Below, in pieces: positions 303-46,236 of a stretch of DNA of 64,000 nucleotides. The stretch is taken from positions 17,874,001-17,938,000 of the forward strand of contig NC_092312.1 of the NCBI RefSeq assembly GCF_036785885.1, in the 5' to 3' direction. The position numbers and the translations under genes are program-made. The notes beneath the pieces are model-generated. The model saw only the letters and a list, made by a program, of their open reading frames with translations. It did not search any database and was not told the origin of the DNA. Within the stretch, counting starts at the first letter, position 1. Each line of letters opens with the position of its first letter. The stretch comes from Coffea arabica (Eukaryota > Streptophyta > Magnoliopsida > Gentianales > Rubiaceae).

Positions 303-3300
303 CTCCAATGAAATATCCCTAAGCCGCCTCCCTGTTTGAGCACAACAAATTCGGACAACACTTTCATCACAACTTCCACTAATAACATAATCCCTTCCAT
401 TCATGTAATAAGAACGAGTGTAGTTCTGAGAGCTTCCTGTTGAAGATATTCTAAAATCTAGATGAAGCCTTCCATCAACAGCCAATAATTGTTTGACCTG
501 CAAAAGAGTCCTTTATTCTCAGCCTAATACAATATTTTTACAGAATCCAGAGTCAATAAATTGAAATCATTTCTTTGTCTTGTCTAACCCTTACATTCAT
601 GAACCCATTTAATTGGGCTATATTTCAGAATTTCTCCAGAAGCTAGTCAAACTGCTAGTAAGAAATATTTTGCATCTGAGAGCAAAGATCCCAAATTTCA
701 AATTCTAACATGTACACCCCAAACAATGTGGTGCTCACAGTAGAGTACTTATAGTTCACTATGCAAATTATTACCTCGTTGTCAACAGCTGAAACAAGAA
801 GATACTGGTCATCAGGAGAAAAGCAGACCATAACATTTCCACGAGAACTTGAAGTAGAATAGCAAGGCTGGTTTGGTTTCTGTCTTAGATCCCACATCTT
901 AACATCTTGATCAAATGATGATGTGGCAAAAATAGAGGGTGAGTGATTTGAAAACTTGACCACATTAATATGCTCTCTGTGCAAATCAGTTAACATCTGC
1001 AAGCGTCTTCCAGTGCTAATATCATACAACGCAACATGCTTTGAGTATCCACTTGCAAGAAGCAGTTCATCGGCCGAATTGACATGAACAGATGTTAACT
1101 GATCAAAGTCATCAAAGGCAACAGAACCAGAACCGACACTTGCTTGAGACATATGATTGATCTCATACAATCTAAGCGAACCATTATCAGAACCAGCGAC
1201 AAGCTGAAATTGGGCAAACAAAACAGAGGAAAGGAGAGAAAACAAATCAGGACGGACATATTATTGAAGGAACAACGAGGCTAGAAAGCCAATTCTTTTG
1301 ATGGATAGGGTCTTCCTTGTAAAAGATAATCACATACAAAAAGTATAAGAATAGGTGCATTTTATTCTTCCCTATGTTCTTCCATTTATCTAAGTGATGG
1401 TACTACCAATGCTCCATAAACAGTCTCAGAAAGTTTGCACAATACTGAAGATGCAGAGATCCACGGAGTCATGAAATTCTTTATTCAGTGCTATCATTAT
1501 ACATGATAATATATGAAAATAGGAGACCATTCACAAAAAGATTGGCTTACGAAACATATCATCTTAGCAAAATTAGCAAATAACTCTAGCAAATGCAAAG
1601 GGATTGTTGATTCTATCTAGATTCAAATGCATCTGAAAATTATAGTTTTCATAAAGATACTTTTTACACTACCATATTAGTTGCTAGGCCAAAATAACAA
1701 ATCACATACCTTTGATGGATACTTTTTAAGCCAACATAATCCCAGGACACTGTTCATTATTCCAAGCGATGGCATGTAACTAACAATATTCTCACTCTCA
1801 TGGTTGACAACAACAACCTCACCATCCAAGGTCCCAAAAACCATAAGGCTTGAATCAGAGGGATGATACTCAAACTGCCTTGGACGGAAACTTCTTCTTT
1901 CATCTCTTAATGGGTTACCCAACCAAGATAGTGGGTGCAAGGCAGGCCATGCAGAAGAACCCATTTTGGCAGCAGATAATGATCTAGAATAGTAGGACGG
2001 TGAGTCACATGATGAATAAGATAGCTTTTCTCTTGAAGACCCAGCTTGTGTATGGGTTGCTCTTATTTCGCGCTTATACAGAATACGCACAACATTCTCT
2101 TTATTCTGTCTTTTATATGGCTGGTACTCGAAGTGTTCTGAAAAGACTGCTTTGGCTCTCTCCCGGTCAATCTTTTCAATTGGCAAGTTATCAAGATTTT
2201 TCAGATTCTGCAAGGAAGCTATCATATACTCTCGGTAATATTTCTCATAGCATATTGGTGAGGAATGACAAGAATTAAACTTCCTTGAAGCACTACATGG
2301 CATATGCTTTGAGTTAGAAGAACTTGGCAAGGGCACTTCATCTTGAATGTCCCATAATCCAAGAGAATTCTGCAATGTCATAGAGTAAGCCATTAATATG
2401 CATAAAAAAGCATCTCTGATTCTTAGCTAATTTTATTCTTGAGAATAGCCTTATTTTTGCCATTTAGGGGTTAGTACATCCTCAAGAAAGGAGCCATATT
2501 GCCATCACATTGCAACAAATGGTCCCTTCTCGATAGACCTACAGCTGTCGCCAGAAATTTTCGAAATAGACTAATATCAAATCAACAACATACTCATTCG
2601 GTTATTTAGTCCATCCCTCCTGAAGAAAGAAGGGGGCAGGGGAAGGTTGGGAAGGAAGACAAATCAACAACGCATAGAGCCACTGAATATTAGCATTTAT
2701 CGCATAGAAAACCTGATTTTGCAGATCAAACAATTCACCCCAACCAGAAGCATCAGGTAAAAAATGTGGCAAACAACGGTCCTGGTGATGACTTGAAAAA
2801 TCCACTTCGCTATTGTCTGATGAATATTCCACTGTGCTTTGATCAAAATTTATATCGTTTGTATTCATGCCTTGCTCTTCTGCATTTGCACTTTGATATA
2901 GGATTTCTTCATCAATAGACCATGGTTCTTCAGAATAAAACCTACCATGGATATAACCTGAATCATTGCTTTCATTTGCTTTTCCTTGGGATGATACACA
3001 ACATCTACCTGATTCATCCAAGCATAAACAGTTCTGAAAGCGAAGTCGAGTCAAAGATGGAAGTTTGGCTAATGCTGCACTTGTTGTCCAGAGATTAGAG
3101 ATCCTTGTCTCACACAATGAGAGGAACTTTAGGTTTGGCATACAACTAAAACAATCCTCTCGAAAACTAGTCAGTGAAGCACTGAAATCCAAATTAAGCG
3201 TATGCATATGCACAAACTTCCCCACCATGTTGAGCTTTCGAAAATGAGAAGACTTTAAGTATAAGACTTGACATCTTAACCCTCGCTGAGCAAGATCCCT

Positions 3301-4603
3301 ACAAGTGACAATCTACAATCAGCCAGTACACATTTAAGTATTCAATCTCATAGTTCAAATCTATGAGAGGTGGTACATAAGTCGTAAACCTCATGCTTCA
3401 ACAAATTACATGGAATGTTAAGCAACATAGAGGCAATTACTAGCTTTACAGCCCTTTACTGCATGTTTCTATACCACCATTGTGGGGGTATAAGAAGGTC
3501 AGACGAGTTCAATGGCAGAAGGAACAGAAAGTCTCCTCTCAATACCAAGATGAAAAAGAAATGAAATTATACTAAGTATAGGAATGGAAGCAGTACTTAC
3601 AACAAAAATTCCTTTCCAAATAATTTGTCTTGGAGATCAACAACTCGAAGCTTCTTATGTATAGCACGCATCAATGACAACACGCATTCACCGCTGAGGA
3701 ACCCAGAGGACTTATTAATGAAGTCCACTGCTTCAATCTCAGAAAAGTCAATTCCCGAGAGGAGATCAAGGAGGGGATGGAAATGATCATCCGTCAAGTC
3801 ATCCAACAAAATCACAAGGCTAACTACTTCACTGCGGGCTTTCCTGACCTTTGCCTGAGACATGACATATATACAAGAGCTTAGGCTTGATTAAGTATCC
3901 AACAAGCTAAATTACTTGAGAAACTAGGGATCAATGCACATCGGACTATGTTGCAGAATAACTCTGTGTAAGCAAAAACATTAAAATAATAACAACAAAG
4001 AAAATTTACTAAGGCATTGTAACACTTATAATCACAAAAACATGAATAATAACAATAAAGGAAAACCCATAGGCAAAAGAATCCACCTCAAGGATTGCAG
4101 ATTTGCTGAGATTTACCAAGGCGTTGTACCTTACATCTTAGTAAAAACAAAGAAAACAACTCTGAAACCCAACCTACTCAATAAAATCGTTATGAAAATG
4201 GAAACATTACTTAGAACTAACAAAAGTAAGCACTTAATGCATCGTTACAGACCTTGAATAGAGCTGACAAAACGACGTTGGTAGGTACAATACCGTGCCG
4301 GTCGCAAGAATCCAAATAGCTGAAATCAATACCAACTTTGATTACAGCGCCAATAATTTTTTTTTTTTAAAAAAAAAAGAAAAAGTTACACTTCAGTAAT
4401 CGTAACTTAGAAACGAACAGGCAAGCTGAAATTCCTCGTATTGTAAAACAACAAAATGATAGACTTAATTCCATATAAAACCAAAAATTTACACTAGAAA
4501 TCACCAGGGAGTCTAAAAAGAATTATTCGAAACCAATAAAACTGTAGATATTAGACGAGAAATACTACCGTCTTTCTAAGGTATGAATATCGATGGTGGC
4601 CAT
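303..4603 (-). CDS. LRR plus WD40 repeat protein with DWD box (3' end outside window)
   Basis: Seven exons read on the minus strand: 4603-4569, 4319-4253, 3854-3601, 3298-2713, 2369-1710, 1203-775 and 497-303, all with GT-AG borders and joining in frame to 742 codons. The last exon ends at a donor and no stop-containing exon is visible in 1-302, so the gene runs off the left edge. The N-terminal third has leucine-rich repeats (for example LNLDFSASL and LKFLSLCETRISNL). A Ser/Asp/Glu-rich linker follows, then WD40 repeats from about residue 300 (LMVFGTLDGEVVVVN, FATSSFDQDVKMWDLRQ). KMWDLR fits the WDxR DWD box that WD40 proteins use to bind DDB1 in CUL4 ubiquitin ligases. The start ATG lies in gccATGGCC and opens MATIDIHTLERRYLDSCDRH. 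Function as a CUL4 substrate receptor is inference; I do not recall a named gene for this fusion. Confidence 0.85.
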
Positions 4604-7600
4604 GGCAAATTTGTTGGCGTTTCTGCCTACTGCTCGACGGCGGAGGCACTGGAATTAACCATAGTACTAGCAGCAATCGTCTTTAATGGAAGAACTAGTT
4701 AACAAAAAAGTGACGGCCTAACAGTCTCCTTCTCCGTCCATTCCTTTCCTTGAGCAGCTTCATCTTCGTTCTGAGTGAGTTTGGGAAGAGAGGTCTTCTT
4801 CCAGGTGGCCGTTATTCAGGAAGCCAAATTTTGCACTTTCTGGCCACATGGACAATGGACCCTGGCTCCTCAGCTCCTACCATATGAATTTGCATCTTGG
4901 GCCGTCAATATATTTTTGGGGCAAATTTAGTCTCGAAACTTGGGCCGGGCCTCCACAAGTAGAAGTTGAAATTGGACAGTGCGATGTAGTATTAGACATC
5001 TCCGGACAAACCTTTGCCTCGTGTAATCTTTCGCGATCCACGCCTTCCTAGCTCCGGCACAAGAGAATCAAAAGAAACGTTACATTTCCTCAAAGCGAAA
5101 GAAAAAGTTACGTTAACATTAGTATATATTTTAGTCAGGAAAATGATACAAACCCAATTAAACATCAAAGCTCGTGTGTTTTTTTTCCAAAAGAAAAAAG
5201 AAAGAAATGAAAAGAGACTAATTTTAAGTCACAAGTTTAACGTGCTGTGGAAATGTTTTGGTACTAGACGGAATTTAAGGCTGAGTAAATTATCAACCTT
5301 AAACCTTTCAACTAATTCATTCCCTCAGAATTTGAGCAGTTGATAGAACCACTATTAAGTGACGTTTCTGCTTCGTTTCGTGGAAATCTTTAGCCTGTCC
5401 TTCAAGAATTATGCCTTCGTGAAAGAAAGTTCTATATAGTGGACGATATGGCAGCCGCGAATAAAGCACCTTTTTCTTTTCTTTTTTTTGGGGGGCCCCC
5501 AAGAAGGCGTGAGATTTATACATTTTTCAGTGGAGCGCTTTTGGCACCTAAATATAACGAGCGCTTTTCAGTGGTATACTATTCAAGATTGTGAGCCTTT
5601 GATAACTTTTTGACCTAATAATCAATAATAATAGTGCTGCTGTGCTCCACCTTCGTCTCGACAGCCCCATGCATCTTGATTCTGAAAAAAAGGCCATATA
5701 TGCTGCTGTGCTTTTTCAGCGGTCTCCTTCCAATTCTCTAGCCCCTGAAAGTGAAAAAAGAAGACGACTTGCGCATCAAGATTGTGACAAAGCTTTGCAG
5801 GGCACTACTGCCTGCATGCACCGTCGCTGGCAAATGCATGAGTAGGTAAAAGTAAAACAGCGGGGACTCTTTCCCTTTATCCCCTGCTGCATTTCTTTTC
5901 TCTTTTCCTTTGTGGGGCTTCCAGTTTTTTGTTCAAATGAGTGGAGGTGTACCTTGCATTCTGTCCCTGGCCTGTAATTAGTATAGTAACTTTGGATCGT
6001 ATCATTTAGCAATACAGGCTTTCCTTAAGTTAGTCGAATTATTGGAAAGAAAGATGAGTAGAGAACTTTAGCCGCAACAAATAAAAAAAGACATATAACG
6101 CCGAAAACACTCTTGATTTTTTTTTTTTTTTTTTTTGCATAATGATACATATAGTCTAACATAGCCTACTCCTACTCCTACGGGAGAGAACCTACTCTAG
6201 GGAGTAGCCCAACTAAACCAAAAGAACCTGACGAAAATTGAACCACCATCAGATCAGACGGATGTACCACGCATCCGCATGAATTTAGAACAATTCTCAT
6301 ACAGAGACACATTGATTTAAGTATGAAAAAATGCTCTTGATTTAAGAAACAGTTGATTTTTTTTTTTTGTTTGCAAATTAATTTGTAAAATAGATGTTTG
6401 GATTGCATATTTTTTAAAAAGTTTTCAAAGAGAAATAACTTGTAATACTTTTGAACCGCATTAGATGATGTTGTCATTTAATCTTCATTCATTTGTAGCT
6501 AATTTGACAATTGAACCGAGGTCAGACGAATCAAATATAAACATATAATGGTTTCTCTCTCAAAGAGAAAGTAACAAACATTCAACTCAACGAAACCTTA
6601 AGAGGGTAAAAGTGCAATTAATTAACCCTAGTGATGGTGATAAATTGATAATGATAATGGACTGCAGGCAACCTTGGATCCGAAGCAAACCAAAGTATAG
6701 ATGTTCTCGTGATTGTGTCGACCTTTCCCCCCCCCCCCCCCCCCAATAAAAATAGCATAACAGAGACGTCCCACCTTTTTTTTTTTTTTTTGGTCAAAAA
6801 AATGTATCCGTAATTATGATGTCCCACGTAAAACATTATACCGATCAATCATTTGGGTGCGTGCAAACAATATTATAGATGGTGGTGAAGAATTTCTTTC
6901 CATCCCCAACGTAAGAATATGATTCTGAAGTTTAACAAGTCAAGTCTAGCGTTATGAGATTTGGGAGTAAATAAATTGATGCCATCTCTTCTCTTCTTTT
7001 GATAACAACAATTAGCCTAAACGCTTCTTTTACAGCAAATTAATTTGACTTCCGAGGAGCTTGTTTTAGCGTAGGAGTAGTTACGTAAAAGACAAGAGCA
7101 GTAGCTAGGGGCGCTTTTACGAACTGTTTTTGGTACTTGGAAGGGGGAAAAAAAAAAAGATTGAGGTGAATTATTATTATTGATACTGATTGAGGTGATA
7201 TATACATATATGTTCAAAAATTGGGGGCAGATATTTAATTATTATTGTATCCTCCGATTTGTACCTTCGGACCAAGAGATTTGTGGGCAACGTTCCAAAT
7301 CGAAACAAACAAAGGAAAAAACAACAACTACTGCTGTATCCGAAGGCATTCTAACAAATAATAATGGCTGCACGTGGAGACGTAAACCCGTCCATGCAGG
7401 TGATGAGATGTTAATTCAACCGTTATCATCAATCATCAACAGACAAACAAGAACAAACATTTGGATTGCATTTTTCATGAAAAAAATTACTGTAGCGATT
7501 TGATGCATGTGAGGGAAAAAGCTAATAAGGAAATGTGATTACGAAAAACAACGTAATTTTCCGACGGAAAGCTGCAGTCCAAACAAGGCCTTCTTGTTGG

Positions 7601-19361: not shown

Positions 19362-21995
19362 TAAATTTTCACTTTGATAGTCTTATTTTTTTTCTCCGTC
19401 TATCCTAAATTATAATTTATTTTTTAATTAAAAAATAAAATTATTTTTAAATTTTTCTAAAATATTCTTATTCAATATGGATTGCTATTAGTATAAATTA
19501 CCTTATTTAATATAGATAATCAACCTACCCCCATTTAATATATTTAGATTTTTCAAAATATATCCTTATACTATATAAGAACGAGTTTAGAATTAGATTT
19601 CAACCGCATGGATGAGGTTATTTTGGGAATGCGAGAGTGTTTGAAGAGTAATTGAAACATTGAGTACAAGTCATTATAGTTTTAATTTCACTATAATTAC
19701 TTATATAACCTTTCAGACATTTAAGGTTAGGGATAGGTTTGATATATTACAATGTTTGGCGCCAAGTTCAGTATCAAGTACAACTGAATAAAGCTTGTAT
19801 TGTATTTTGATAGAATTACATAAAAGTTTTTCCAATCATTTATTATACTAACATCCAAAACTTCCAATTTCCTGAAAACCTTTCTCTAAGAAATTAATTG
19901 GATGTTTACATAATTGAATTTTAATTACAATTAATTAGCTTAATTATTATGTAAACAATCATTATCATATTTATGTCTCCATGTTTAGCCGATATCCTTT
20001 CTTCTTTTTCGGTTTCACCTTTTTGATTTTATTATGACTATTAAATATTTGGTAGAATACATAGCTTTTCCTTTAAATTGAGGTGGGTTCTTTGAGTTTG
20101 TCTTTTTCGATTGTAGTTTTTTTTTTCTGATGATTGGTTTATTCAAGAATTCCATATAGTTTGTTTTTTGATACTTCTAATTCCAAAAATTGGCTAATTG
20201 TATTATTTTTCTTAGTAAATTTCAGAGATTCTATTTCTGGTCAAAGTACAATTTGAGATAATTTTGTCACTTTCTAAAATAATCAGAAAAGTAATTTTAT
20301 CATTTTCTCCTCCTCAGTCAAGATATTATATGTTTATTTAAGTCAAATAACCTTATTTCTCATGAACTTTCCCCTATTATTCTTGACTCTAGAGATCTGT
20401 TGGCTACATTCCAGCAATTATGGTTCAAATAGTTATTTTTTCATGTAATATGATTTGAAATTCACCTTGTGTTTATTTTAATTGAAAATTTTTTTATTAT
20501 AAAATTTATTAATTTAGAATTTTGTACTTCATTGAAACTAAAAAATAAAATTAATCGTGCTACATAGTACTAAAATGTCATTTGCACTCTATTTGCTTTC
20601 CATGCTATGATCTTGTTCTTGTATTATACTGTTTATATAATTTCAAATACAAAAAATTTATTTTTTTATGCTATGTAAAAAAGTTTGTAGTGAAACTTGA
20701 TGAGTTTAAATGCTTTACCTACAACACTATTTTGATTGCATTGTATTAATTCATTTACTCATAATTGTATGTTATACAATGATAAATAATGTTTCTTGAT
20801 TTGATTGAAGCAACTATTATCCATAGCTCAAACGAGTCAATTAAGTAGAGATGTTATATTGGGTACTTATACAAGTAAACATTGGAAAATATTATTAAGC
20901 AGTTTCTACCTATAGTTTGTAATTCGAATTCATATGAGGAATTTCTTCTGATTTTACTTACCATTTTCTACAATTTCAAATTTAGAAAATATTATTTTCA
21001 CCAATTTTTTATAATCAAGATATGTTCAATTTAGATCTTTAACAATTACGCAGATTTGAACTTATTTATAAGATTATAAAGAAATGCTCCTAGCAAAAAA
21101 CACCAAATTTGAATAATTTTTACAAAACTTTGAAAAAAACCACTTAAGTTTCTTATCTATCTATCATTTTTAAGCATTATTATCTCTGTAAGAAACATGT
21201 GATTAAGTCGTATTATACCCACCAAATTATATAAATAGTTAGTAAAAAGTAAAATTATTTTAAATTAGATTGGATGCAAAGTGATTGATAGATAAACTTG
21301 ACTTGATAATTCAGATTGAACTTAAGTCGAGGGAGAAATCAGAAGCATTGCTTGAGAGATATTTCACGAACATATATAGATTCGAGAGATGAAGGGTCCA
21401 ATTGATATTTTAAAATGTTTTATCATCTTGGATAAGTATTAGAAAAGACCTTTGAATACTTTTCAATTGCACTTCAAACATTTTTACATTTTCAAACTAC
21501 TCTTATCTTTGCAGTTGAAATTCAAACATAACTTTTGATCACAACGGATTCTTATATAGTATAACGATAAGGATGTCTTATTGCACATTATTTTTATTGA
21601 CTCACTATGTAACTTATAATTTTTCTATTAAAATCACATGACAAAATCATCATACTTCAGTTCCTATACTACAAAATATTAAACAATAATTATTAATCAT
21701 CTTGAATCACAAGCACCAAATTCCCGAGCGTCGCACGGGCTGTCCCTCCTTAGTTAATATATGAAAAGCCAGTTTTGTTATTCTTTCAAGCTAAAATGTG
21801 AAATAATGTAAAATGAGAATTGATTCTTTCTTGATCATCAATTCAAGTTTAATAATTAATATAAAATTATACTCTATTCAATGTAAGGGTATTTTAGAAA
21901 AATACCAATCTAAATTTATTATTCCAATAAAATTAACTACTTTTTCTTAAACTATGTGAAAAAAAACTAAAACTATCAAAATGGGACAGATGAAT
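19362..21995. mobile_element. Stowaway-like MITE relic split by a Helitron
   Basis: The left part (19362 on: CACTTTGATAGTCTTATTTT, CTCCGTCTATCC) and right part (up to about 21995: AACTATCAAAATGGGACAG) match the ends of the whole Stowaway element at 34642-34988. The extreme termini have drifted. Between them sits the Helitron at 19563-21754. This is an older copy of the family used as landing site. Confidence 0.55.
19563..21754 (+). mobile_element. Non-autonomous Helitron, about 2.2 kb
   Basis: The 5' end TCCTTATACTATATAAGAAC has the TC start and the TATACTATATAAGAA-type head of plant Helitrons. Near the 3' end, CCCGAGCGTCGCACGGG (21723-21739) forms the short GC hairpin, followed by a 15-base tail ending CCTTAGT, close to the usual CTRRT end. 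Target sites fit insertion between A and T. The interior is AT-rich with no Rep/helicase frame, so it must depend on another element for movement. Confidence 0.65.
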
Positions 21996-22624: not shown

Positions 22625-22903
22625 AGGTAAATCTAACCGAAAGGCAATGTTTTCAAACCCGGACCGTCAATCGAACCGGTGAAGTGAAAGGGTCGAGGTT
22701 CAACCGGTCGGACCGGTTCAACCGGGGTTTAATAAATAAATAAATATATATATATACACACACACACCTATGCACAGAATAAGATATAAATGCTGAACCA
22801 CAATAAATATAAGAGCAATATTAAACAATTAACACACACACAATTAACATAGTTATCAAACTTACATGTCCAATTGTCTAAATATTAGAATTAACAAAAA
22901 ACA

Positions 22904-23100
22904 ATACTTTTAAATAATTGGGAACTGAAACTGTCACCAAAAGAGATTTAAAGACATCAAATATACTTTTAAATAATTGTGGGAACTGAAACTGTCACCA
23001 AAAGCTTCTTGAGGGTGTTAAGTATTTTCATGATAACTGGGTTTTGCACAGAGATTCAAAGACATCAAATATACTTTTAAATAATTATGGTGAGTTGAAG
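22904..23100 (+). repeat. Three partial copies of a kinase-derived segment
   Basis: ATACTTTTAAATAATT recurs at about 22904, 22962 and 23069. Copies one and two continue as GGGAACTGAAACTGTCACC. The second and third are preceded by AGATTYAAAGACATCAA. The third copy is the in-frame kinase sequence coding [13 protein letters not shown], so the first two look like local duplications of it that have diverged. Confidence 0.6.
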
Positions 23101-23181
23101 ATCTGTGACTTTGGATTAGCACGTCAATATGAAAGCCCTTTGAAACCATATACTCACTTGGTGGTTACTTTGTGCTACAGG
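23005..23181 (+). pseudogene. CDK11/CDKG-type protein kinase fragment
   Basis: A 59-codon open stretch reads [19 protein letters not shown], then [20 protein letters not shown], then [20 protein letters not shown]. This spans the catalytic loop (HRD, here HRDSK where HRDLK is usual), the DFG motif and the activation segment of PITSLRE-type cyclin-dependent kinases, which plants call CDKG. Similarity stops abruptly at both ends and the rest of the kinase is absent. Its placement inside a hAT-like element implies that it was picked up by the transposon. The reading frame remains open across the kept part. Confidence 0.85.
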
Positions 23182-24197
23182 TTACTTATGATTCACTCGT
23201 GGCCAACCCACCAAGTAGTTGGTTCATAGGACCATCTATTTAGGAAATGAAATTCCGCCATATCCCTTTTAATGTTGAAAGCCAAAATCCACAAAAGAAC
23301 AAGAAAATGCTCTCAGATTGTTACAATTGCCTCAAAGAATACTAAACCTCGTTCTATGTTTAGTGCCATTAAATAAAGGAAAGCTAGTTACAATAACTTA
23401 GCGCTTGATCTGATTAAGCATATATGAAAGTAGCTATAAGCTTATAACCAAGAAGACAATACAAAATTGGCCAGTGGCCTTCCCCATGACTGCCTGCCTT
23501 AGACAAATTTCAGAACAAATACACCAGGCAGAAATGGTCTTGACCACCCAGCATCCGGAATTACAAAATGATTGCTTGAATTAAATGATTAAAGCTTCCA
23601 CTTGCAAGAACGATTGTTTTCAATCCCTCTTTATTCGTGTTTACTTTGAATTTATCAAGAATACATCCAATTCACAGTTTTTTCAATACTGTAAGGACCC
23701 GTAAGGACCCGTAAGCGAAATGTAAAAGTCTCTAAATGACCATTCCCAAAGTCAAACTCAGACTAATTCTAAGCCTTGAAAGTCAAAGGACCTTTGTGAA
23801 AGGCGAAGCACAGGAACCAGTTTTGCCTAGGGAAGAATCTTGAGACCTGAAATAAACTGTTCAGAGTCTTATACTTTCTTAGGTATTGAATCATTACTCA
23901 AGGGGTTAGAGTCCCAAACTCAGGAAAAAGAGCACCGTCATGTTCAAATTAAGTATACCATTCTCCTAGGATCCACAGCTCTAGACATCTTGATCTGGGT
24001 AGATGTATCTATTACCAAGGAAACATGCATGTACAGGTATGGGAAAGACAGAGCTGGGTAAATTCGTGGGTCTTCTTACAATAATGAAGCAAAAAATATT
24101 TAAGTGTACTACATGGAATCTTTGACAATCGAGGCAGGGTACCCTAAGCCCAGATGAGAACGAAAACTGGAACTGTGACTCCAACTATCACAAGTAC

Positions 24198-24300
24198 CTT
24201 GTTGCTTTTCTTCTTCTTGCCACCCCCGGAAGACCTAGCTGCCGGACTGGTATCGCCCAAATTCCTGGAGGAAGAAATTGGGTATTGATCGATGAGCAAG
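24198..24300 (-). other. Possible captured first exon of an unknown gene
   Basis: On the minus strand a pyrimidine-rich leader-like stretch leads into codons reading SSRNLGDTSPAARSSGGGKK and then KKSNK, stopping at AACAAG|GTACTT, a good splice donor. It lies inside the kinase-carrying hAT-like element. The sequence looks coding but I do not recognise the source gene, and no ATG in this frame is certain. Confidence 0.3.
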
Positions 24301-24807
24301 TGTGGAAATAGCACTGGATCAAGATTGGAGTTTGGAGAAGGGAATAGGGACGGCAGGCAATTTTGGCAATTGCAGGGGAAGTGGGAAGAGTCGGAAGACC
24401 GAAGCGGCGCAGCGAAGAGGAAGAGTGGAAGACTGATTCATGAAGATTGAAGAATGAAGGGTGAACCGGAGATTAGGTTTAGATAATTTCGGTCAAAATT
24501 CAGTCAAATTTGCCAAAAATTAAAAAATCGCGGTTCACGGTTCGTTCCGGTTTTAAACGGGTTGTACGGTTTTTACGGATTTGACCGGTTTTTGGACCAA
24601 GTCAACACAGGCTATGAACCGGACCGGATATAAGGCCGGATCGCGGTCGAACCGGCCGGTCCGGTCCGGGTTTGAAAACATTGCCGAAAGGTTAGCATTT
24701 ATACCTAGCTGGCTAAGAAGTGAGAAATTGATTTGTGGATCCACTTCCGATCCGTTTTATTTGGGGTGTCATGCATTTGTCCTTAATGGCTATGTATCCA
24801 ATATAAT

Positions 24808-24995
24808 TTTTTTTTTTTTTGTCATCATAGTGGGTATCTGGACCCGTGGATTGGTTATCATACTACCCAACTAGTCCTCACTGTGAGCTGGGAGAGGCTC
24901 GTCCTAGCGTCACCAGCCATGTTAACACCGGGAGTCGAAACCGTGACGATGGTACTCATCCAACTAGACTACTACCACCAACTCCAACCCCAGAG
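24808..24995 (-). mobile_element. tRNA-derived SINE, whole-looking
   Basis: A 188-bp retroposon in minus orientation with a T-run (its poly-A tail) at 24808 on. An exact 20-bp target-site duplication, GGCTATGTATCCAATATAAT, lies at 24788-24807 and 24996-25015. On the minus strand the head has A-box-like TAGTCTAGTTGG and B-box-like GGTTTCGACTCC. It differs in sequence from the SINE at 18739, so it is a second family. Confidence 0.85.
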
Positions 24996-25015
24996 GGCTA
25001 TGTATCCAATATAAT

Positions 25016-45441: not shown

Positions 45442-46236
45442 AGGGTTAATTACATTTACCTCCCTTGAGGTTTGATCATATTATCAATCAATCCCTATAA
45501 TTTATCCAAATAACGGTTTCACCCTTTGAATGATCAAACATTTAACAAAAACCCCCTTAATGCCGAAAATGCCCTTTTTGAGGCCATATTGCATTAAAAA
45601 AAGAACATATTTTTATTTATTAACTTTCAAGTAATCCAAAAAAATCATCAAAAAGTTTTTGCTTATTATTTTATAAAAATCATATCTTTGCTTCCATAAA
45701 TAGTTTTGAATCAATAATTATTTTAAATCTTAAAAATGAATATTAAAAATTAGATAAATTGAAAGAAAAATAAAAAAGAAGCAATTATTTTAAATCCTCA
45801 AGTATGGTTCGAATTTGTGGTTCAAGGCATGTTGCAGAGAGCACAAGGCATGTTTTCCTCAATTTGAACCATACTTCAGCAATTAAAATAATTTCTTCTT
45901 TTTTTATTTTTCTTTCAATTTATCTAATTTTTAATATTCATTTTTAAGATTTAAAATAATTATTGATTCAAAACTATTTATGGAAGCAAATATATGGTTT
46001 TTATAAAATAATAAGCAAAAACTTTTTTCTATTTTTTTTGGATTGCTTCACGGTTAATAAAATAAAAATATGTTCTTTTTTTAATGTAACATGGCCTCAA
46101 TAAGGGCATTTTCGGCATTAAGGGGGTTTTTGTTAAATATTGGATCATTCAAAGAGTGAGACCGTTATTTGGACAAATTATAGGAATTGATTGGTAATAT
46201 GGTCAAACTTCAAGGGAGGTAAATGTAATTAACCCT
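45442..46236. mobile_element. Foldback element with near-perfect 390-bp arms
   Basis: The left end AGGGTTAATTACATTTACCT is mirrored at the right end AGGTAAATGTAATTAACCCT, and the mirror holds inward for almost 400 bases (for example CCCTTAATGCCGAAAATGCC against GGCATTTTCGGCATTAAGGG). Only about 20 bases at the centre near 45835 do not pair. Flanks AAGATTA at 45435-45441 and 46237-46243 look like a target-site duplication of 7 to 8 bp. High arm-to-arm identity suggests a young insertion or gene conversion between arms. It has no coding sequence, and the superfamily is unclear. Confidence 0.85.

Follow-up and report, generated by a model that had tools for sequence, protein, structure and literature searches.

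A Pack-hAT element of Coffea arabica with captured host fragments and a kinase block shared with transposase-bearing relatives

The window analysed here, a stretch of 64,000 nucleotides (G000:C3:17874001-17938000 of the 1.198-Gb genome of Coffea arabica), contains a hAT element of 2,039 bp at positions 22645-24683. Our results point towards this element being a Pack-hAT, i.e. a non-autonomous hAT element with gene fragments, in whose family the captures were made stepwise, the kinase fragment coming first and in the transposase lineage; we give this reading a probability of about 0.86. Host DNA from four donor loci, three of which are recognisable genes, makes up approximately 1.3 kb of its 2.04 kb (Table 1). 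The preliminary description of this DNA had proposed capture from a CDK11/CDKG gene. The donor was indeed found (loci L017 and L018), and the proposal is amended in three respects: the option of an RNA intermediate is not supported, the kinase piece was inherited from a transposase-bearing ancestor, and three more host fragments had been missed.

Table 1. Features of the element and its borders (window positions; L-numbers are donor loci with their own coordinates)
Feature	Position	Strand	Evidence or remark
Left target-site duplication CCGAAAGG	22637..22644	.	Single copy at empty homeologous site
Left 22-bp terminal inverted repeat	22645..22666	+	Exact match to right end
hAT left end (element 1-263)	22645..22907	+	Common to many family copies
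Inverted kinase intron-3 bit, first of two direct copies (L017 ~6038-6013)	22919..22943	-	Direct repeat; intron identity by inspection in window
41-bp duplicate of kinase exon (L017 4882-4922)	22942..22982	+	Sequence comparison
Inverted kinase intron-3 bit, second copy	22980..23004	-	Direct repeat; intron identity by inspection in window
PITSLRE-type CDK (CDKG/CDK11-like) exon fragment	23003..23182	+	95.6% to L017 4835-5014
RCC1-repeat gene 3' end, antisense to kinase piece	23185..23692	-	L015 5156-4647, 92%
Fragment of single-copy C2 locus	23702..24152	- (relative to L013)	L013 4906-4447, 95.9%
Transmembrane-exon piece, malectin-like/LRR gene (L053/L054)	24147..24248	-	Sequence comparison and domain search
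LRR-exon piece, same malectin-like/LRR gene (L053/L054)	24238..24309	-	Sequence comparison
hAT right end with subterminal ACCGG/CCGGT repeats	24310..24683	+	Sequence comparison with family
Right 22-bp terminal inverted repeat	24662..24683	-	Exact match to left end
Right target-site duplication CCGAAAGG	24684..24691	.	Exact match to left duplication

The first 22 bp of the element are an exact inverted copy of its last 22 bp, and an exact 8-bp duplication stands on both sides. Both features had been described beforehand, together with an extent of 22644..24683 and a size of 2.04 kb; the end and the size hold, and the start moves by one base, since 22644 is the last base of the duplication. The ACCGG/CCGGT motifs are confined to element positions 31-77 and 1821-2017 (start positions). 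An arrangement of this kind, an exact 22-bp inverted pair inside an exact 8-bp duplication, was found in two places in the window (22645-24683 and 45722-45955) and in none of 50 mononucleotide shuffles. The second place is a 234-bp AT-rich unit with ATAATTAT on both sides, and is probably a small inverted-repeat element.

Two stretches of the N-methyltransferase family in this genome match the Coffea xanthosine methyltransferase 2EG5 (4.6e-66 and 1.1e-76), with alignments that look ~90% and ~96% identical. The contigs form the pairs C1/C2, C3/C4 and C21/C22, which suggests an allotetraploid, and the flanks of the element match the homeologous region C4:18054458-18056359 (99 differences in 819 positions). 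This site is empty: the flanks join there at one CCGAAAGG, and a further difference is an 18-bp gap that begins 5 bp right of the duplication. The element is thus a real insertion, made after the C3 and C4 lineages separated. Two other features of this neighbourhood are worth recording. A SINE-like insertion with poly-A and a B-box-like GGTTTCGACTCCC lies on the minus strand at window 24788-25014, flanked by GGCTATGTATCCAATATAA, of which C4 carries a single motif without the insert; similar stretches were matched on many contigs. A sequence of ~355 bp at 21400-21760, which stops where the C4 match starts, recurs with 93-96% identity in dozens of the places scored (3,109 first-look candidates).

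The window copy has a twin on C1 (C1a): over 2,039 aligned bases the two are separated by 5 substitutions, C1a being 39 bp longer. Set against the 99 differences in 819 positions of the C3/C4 flanks, the movement of the window copy looks recent, and the empty C4 site together with the near-identical twin would imply that it moved in the past, presumably by means of transposase supplied by its relatives.

These relatives place the element. Among 14 sibling loci (L009-L012 and L019-L028) both ends were located in ten; the 8-bp flanks are exact in seven of the ten (L009, L010, L011, L025, L026, L027 and L028), differ by one mismatch in two (L012 and L023) and do not match in L020. On their minus strand, the copies C12 (5,057 bp), C15 (5,049 bp) and C6b (4,657 bp) carry a transposase gene. 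In Pfam searches the C15 transposase matched DUF659 (9e-55) and hATC (PF05699, 1.7e-15), its BED match being weak (0.0014) and under Pfam's cut-off, and that of C12 matched DUF659 (6.7e-53). The frames of all three copies are broken by stops or frame shifts. The hAT-type assignment made earlier is therefore borne out by siblings with the same ends that carry a DUF659/hATC transposase, and on these sequence features we assign the window element to the hAT superfamily. It lacks the transposase itself, as it aligns to the C12 copy only at 1-275, 3244-4021 and 4511-5057, and the C12 transposase frames, at 1278-3132, lie outside all these alignments. The window element thus has the structure of a non-autonomous hAT deletion derivative, as maize Ds is a deletion derivative of Ac. 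The copy C6a lost its transposase via another deletion (C12 coordinates 517/3096, versus 275/3244 in the window copy).

Some family copies are arranged in other ways. In L023, the family copy at 3166-6441 encloses another pair of ends (5396-6441, with GTTTTAGG at either flank), which apparently reflects the insertion of one copy into, or next to, a second one. L036-L040 represent a subfamily of ~1.55 kb; their right end is similar, their left end reads CAATGTTTTAAAACTCGG, and the 8-bp flanks agree in each of the five. Scanning them for donor sequence gave matches only outside the elements, in L037 and L040.

The kinase fragment (element 359-538) is 95.6% identical to L017 on C22 and 95.0% to L018 on C21. 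A 79-aa open frame at window 22990-23229 spans the HRD (here HRDSK) and DFG motifs and matches Pfam Pkinase at 4.9e-18. Its nearest relatives in the PDB are three CDK11B chains (2.3e-22 to 3.9e-22), followed by a match at 6.5e-18 and by CDK2 chains near 5e-15. The frame lacks most of the kinase and continues into the antisense RCC1 sequence. The donor frame has 593 codons (1.78 kb, one exon), reads PLTSLRE at its PITSLRE-like helix and encodes the first part of the kinase domain. The in-frame PITSLRE-type piece with both motifs was accordingly recovered as described, and alignment to the parental gene places it inside one large exon. On this sequence evidence, the source of the piece is the PITSLRE-type (CDKG/CDK11-like) CDK gene on C22/C21. 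Similarity to this gene is confined within the element, to 23003-23182 and the 41-bp duplicate, and stops before the inverted ends. The intron-3 identity of the inverted bits was shown in the siblings C2b, L046 and L047. A 40-bp stretch of the kinase exon is present in two or three tandem copies inside the elements L027 (C6), L028 (C14) and L047 (C8).

Regarding the other fragments, the RCC1 piece corresponds to element 541-1048, its donors being L015 and L016. Among the matches scored, donor sequence for the piece at element 1058-1508 occurs on C2 (95.9%) and C1 (91.6%) only. This donor was scanned with Pfam in ten frames of L013 and in a single stretch of L014, and no convincing domain emerged (best 0.065); a frame next to it in L013 may resemble SIAMESE-related proteins. 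The malectin-like/LRR pieces (element 1503-1604 and 1594-1665) occur in seven kinase-bearing copies and in two copies without a kinase match, and were not found in L046 or L047, a distribution that does not fix the place of this capture in the order. The two copies that lack a kinase match (L041, C8:48381346-48383598, and L043, C12:11277574-11279822; ~1,970 bp of each read) have the same ends as the window element, and siblings of this kind had been named beforehand as support for capture.

Comparison of the copies orders the remaining captures. In L017 coordinates, L046 joins kinase 4765-5078, 5634-5843 and 5989-6042, and in the C6 and C11 copies the matching stretches are 4765-5078, 5634-5903 and 5984-6042. 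The breakpoint 5078/5634 is common to six siblings and L046, and L017 5079-5633 is covered by no element match among the best 40 of 52 kinase candidates. In C12, C15 and C6a, kinase 4835-5014 is followed by RCC1 5156-4543 and then by kinase 5821-~6042, with identical junctions in the three copies; they have no C2-locus fragment and keep kinase intron-3 sequence that L046 lost, so that they go back either to an early state of the block or to a capture of their own. Both the window copy and C1a share the first of these junctions and have C2-locus DNA in place of the RCC1 tail and the second kinase piece; in these two copies, which have no transposase, the C2-locus DNA also replaces the sequence up to the malectin/LRR fragment. 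The fragments are thus nested, each later one lying within an earlier one at the expense of part of its sequence. Divergence from the donors agrees with this order (2.2% for the C2 locus versus 5.9-7.5% for RCC1). At 16 sites that differ between the C2 and C1 donor homeologs, the element agrees with C2 at 13 and with C1 at 3, so the C2-locus capture probably took place after the homeolog split; C15 is ~6% from both RCC1 donors, which are 1.5% apart, so the RCC1 capture probably preceded it.

The joints between fragments bear scars. AGCCCA is shared at the joint of the C2-locus fragment and the right end, a tandem AAGGACCCGT stands at that of RCC1 and the C2-locus fragment, an inverted piece of intron 3 of the same gene stands at the start of the kinase block, and an 18-bp direct repeat flanks this block in L046. 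Most junctions share only 0-2 bp, by inspection. We infer that these scars are of the kind left by break repair with template switching. Each capture would then be a copy made during repair of a break inside the element, by synthesis with template switching. The sequences themselves show that a transposase-encoding hAT lineage contains genomic DNA from a 1.28-kb span of the PITSLRE-type CDK gene, adjacent to the start codon of the transposase, and that the two were amplified together; that in one branch RCC1 3'-end DNA occupies the middle of the kinase block; and that the window copy and C1a have no transposase, C2-locus DNA standing in for the RCC1 tail, for the second kinase piece and for the stretch as far as the malectin/LRR fragment.

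The fragments could instead have been gained via ectopic recombination or hybrid excision of two neighbouring elements, and acquisition from neighbouring elements does figure in the accessible parts of the Pack-TYPE literature (PMC8903248; PMC13317346). We consider this route unlikely, as no family end was found in 9.6-9.8 kb around three of the four donors (L013-L018) and the nested replacement of fragments is not predicted by a neighbour model.

It may also be asked in which copies the kinase capture was made. Our genome searches scored the best 40 of 1,665, 1,212, 119 (transposase) and 52 (kinase) candidates, and all copy numbers are accordingly lower bounds. Among the best 40 of the 119 transposase candidates, a kinase block lies within 1.5 kb upstream of the transposase in 21 of the 22 copies that are 94-100% identical to C15, and in none of the four copies at 85-88% or the 14 at 77-79%, an absence that rests partly on the best 40 of 52 kinase candidates. 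Five of these 18 distant copies (L048-L052) were read over 2 kb each and showed no kinase match. In the single exception among the close copies, on C16, the kinase match is 8.3 kb off, perhaps split from the transposase by a later insertion. The kinase census itself (best 40 of 52 candidates) gave 40 loci, namely two genes and 38 others, and each of the 16 non-gene loci read has at least one family end. The presence of the block in 21 of 22 close copies and in none of 18 distant ones implies acquisition by a transposase-bearing ancestor. Judging from these sequences, the block arrived once or a few times in such an ancestor and was amplified with the transposase lineage, and the window element inherited its kinase piece rather than capturing it itself.

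The position of the block relative to the transposase gene may explain why it was retained. On the transposase strand, 6 of 12 sequences have TTTTAG/GATG immediately ahead of the start codon, including the uncaptured L049 and L051, and a matching leader exon ending in AG/GTT was found in two of the 12 (L046 and L049); three of the 12, the window copy included, have lost the leader region. The kinase block of L046 lies between the predicted donor (AG/GTT) and acceptor (TTTTAG/GATG) sites, within the predicted leader and antisense to the transposase gene. In the uncaptured L048-L052 the sequence immediately flanking the block is missing, which hides the precise site as it stood before capture. 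Nevertheless, the block seems to sit in a predicted 5' leader intron of the transposase gene, a site at which the first capture could have been tolerated. It is tempting to speculate, and we do so tentatively, that this intron acted as a loading dock: cargo copied there in break repair would spare the transposase, the autonomous lineage would spread the cargo, and Pack forms would follow by loss of transposase, so that Pack-hATs would not be loaded as non-autonomous elements.

The antisense orientation of the block in the predicted leader, and its presence at the at least 38 loci besides the two genes (among the best 40 of 52 candidates), might also be taken to mean that the kinase or RCC1 piece was kept because element transcripts regulate the donor genes. 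This seems to us very improbable. Across 14 copies of the kinase exon compared with the donor, 41 of 55 distinct changes are nonsynonymous, against a neutral expectation of 0.728 (p 0.88), these being differences from one donor copy, counted with no tree and with donor-side changes included; besides, the captured pieces are variously deleted or replaced among the copies. These figures fit neutral drift of the captured exon, with no sign of selection, and the cargo is most likely a neutral passenger.

Least probable of all is that the kinase piece is a retrocopy of spliced RNA later carried by the hAT element: the piece in the window has no interruption and stops ~2 bp or less from where the donor exon ends, but it was drawn from a single 1.78-kb donor exon frame, the siblings run ~65 bp into donor intron 1 (to L017 5078) and carry sequence of introns 2 and 3 (borders read from the donor sequence, not annotated), and the jump from 5078 to 5634, with its start in an intron and its end in an exon, does not correspond to a splice junction. 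The donor introns in the siblings mean that genomic DNA was captured and contradict an RNA intermediate. Of the two origins put forward for the intronless HRD-DFG stretch, only the source exon thus stands, the window piece being free of introns because it comes from one large exon.

Pack-hATs have been reported in maize and rice (PMC8903248). In the accessible part of that report they resemble the coffee elements, being non-autonomous hATs that end in terminal inverted repeats, are flanked by 8-bp duplications and enclose captured DNA of genes; the coffee family differs in that four donor loci were traced, intermediates survive and transposase-bearing copies also carry cargo. Maize Ds2 and Ds-l4, as far as the account of them is accessible (PMC3260210), are likewise hAT deletion derivatives with filler DNA that is at times genic and contains introns, although they belong to another hAT family and the captures described consist of one gene fragment per non-autonomous element, or else of a compound element. 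The nearest parallel is grapevine Hatvine-6, in which transposase and terminal repeats are shared and the rest is variable, often host exons and introns; the accessible portion of that account gives neither a step-by-step series nor a leader-intron position (PMC2528002). For metazoan Pack-TIRs, including a frog Pack-hAT, the proposed route is similar to that favoured here (filling of gaps, or template switching during replication, with microhomology), whereas these are animal cases and the frog multicopy example, in the text available, has one captured 5' UTR piece (PMC8277862). A literature search, mostly outside subscription papers, returned no report that we recognised as this coffee hAT family. 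Pack-hATs are therefore already known, and the coffee family is probably a new, well-resolved family of Coffea arabica, distinguished by an unusually clear, preserved and ordered series of captures and by their position by the transposase leader.

How transposons capture host genes is still debated. With donors, several intermediates and uncaptured relatives in one genome, the coffee family offers an ordered series against which gap repair with template switching, hybrid excision and RNA copying can be tested. Altogether, it suggests that captures may be made by the transposase-encoding copies, even though it is in non-autonomous copies that they usually come to notice.
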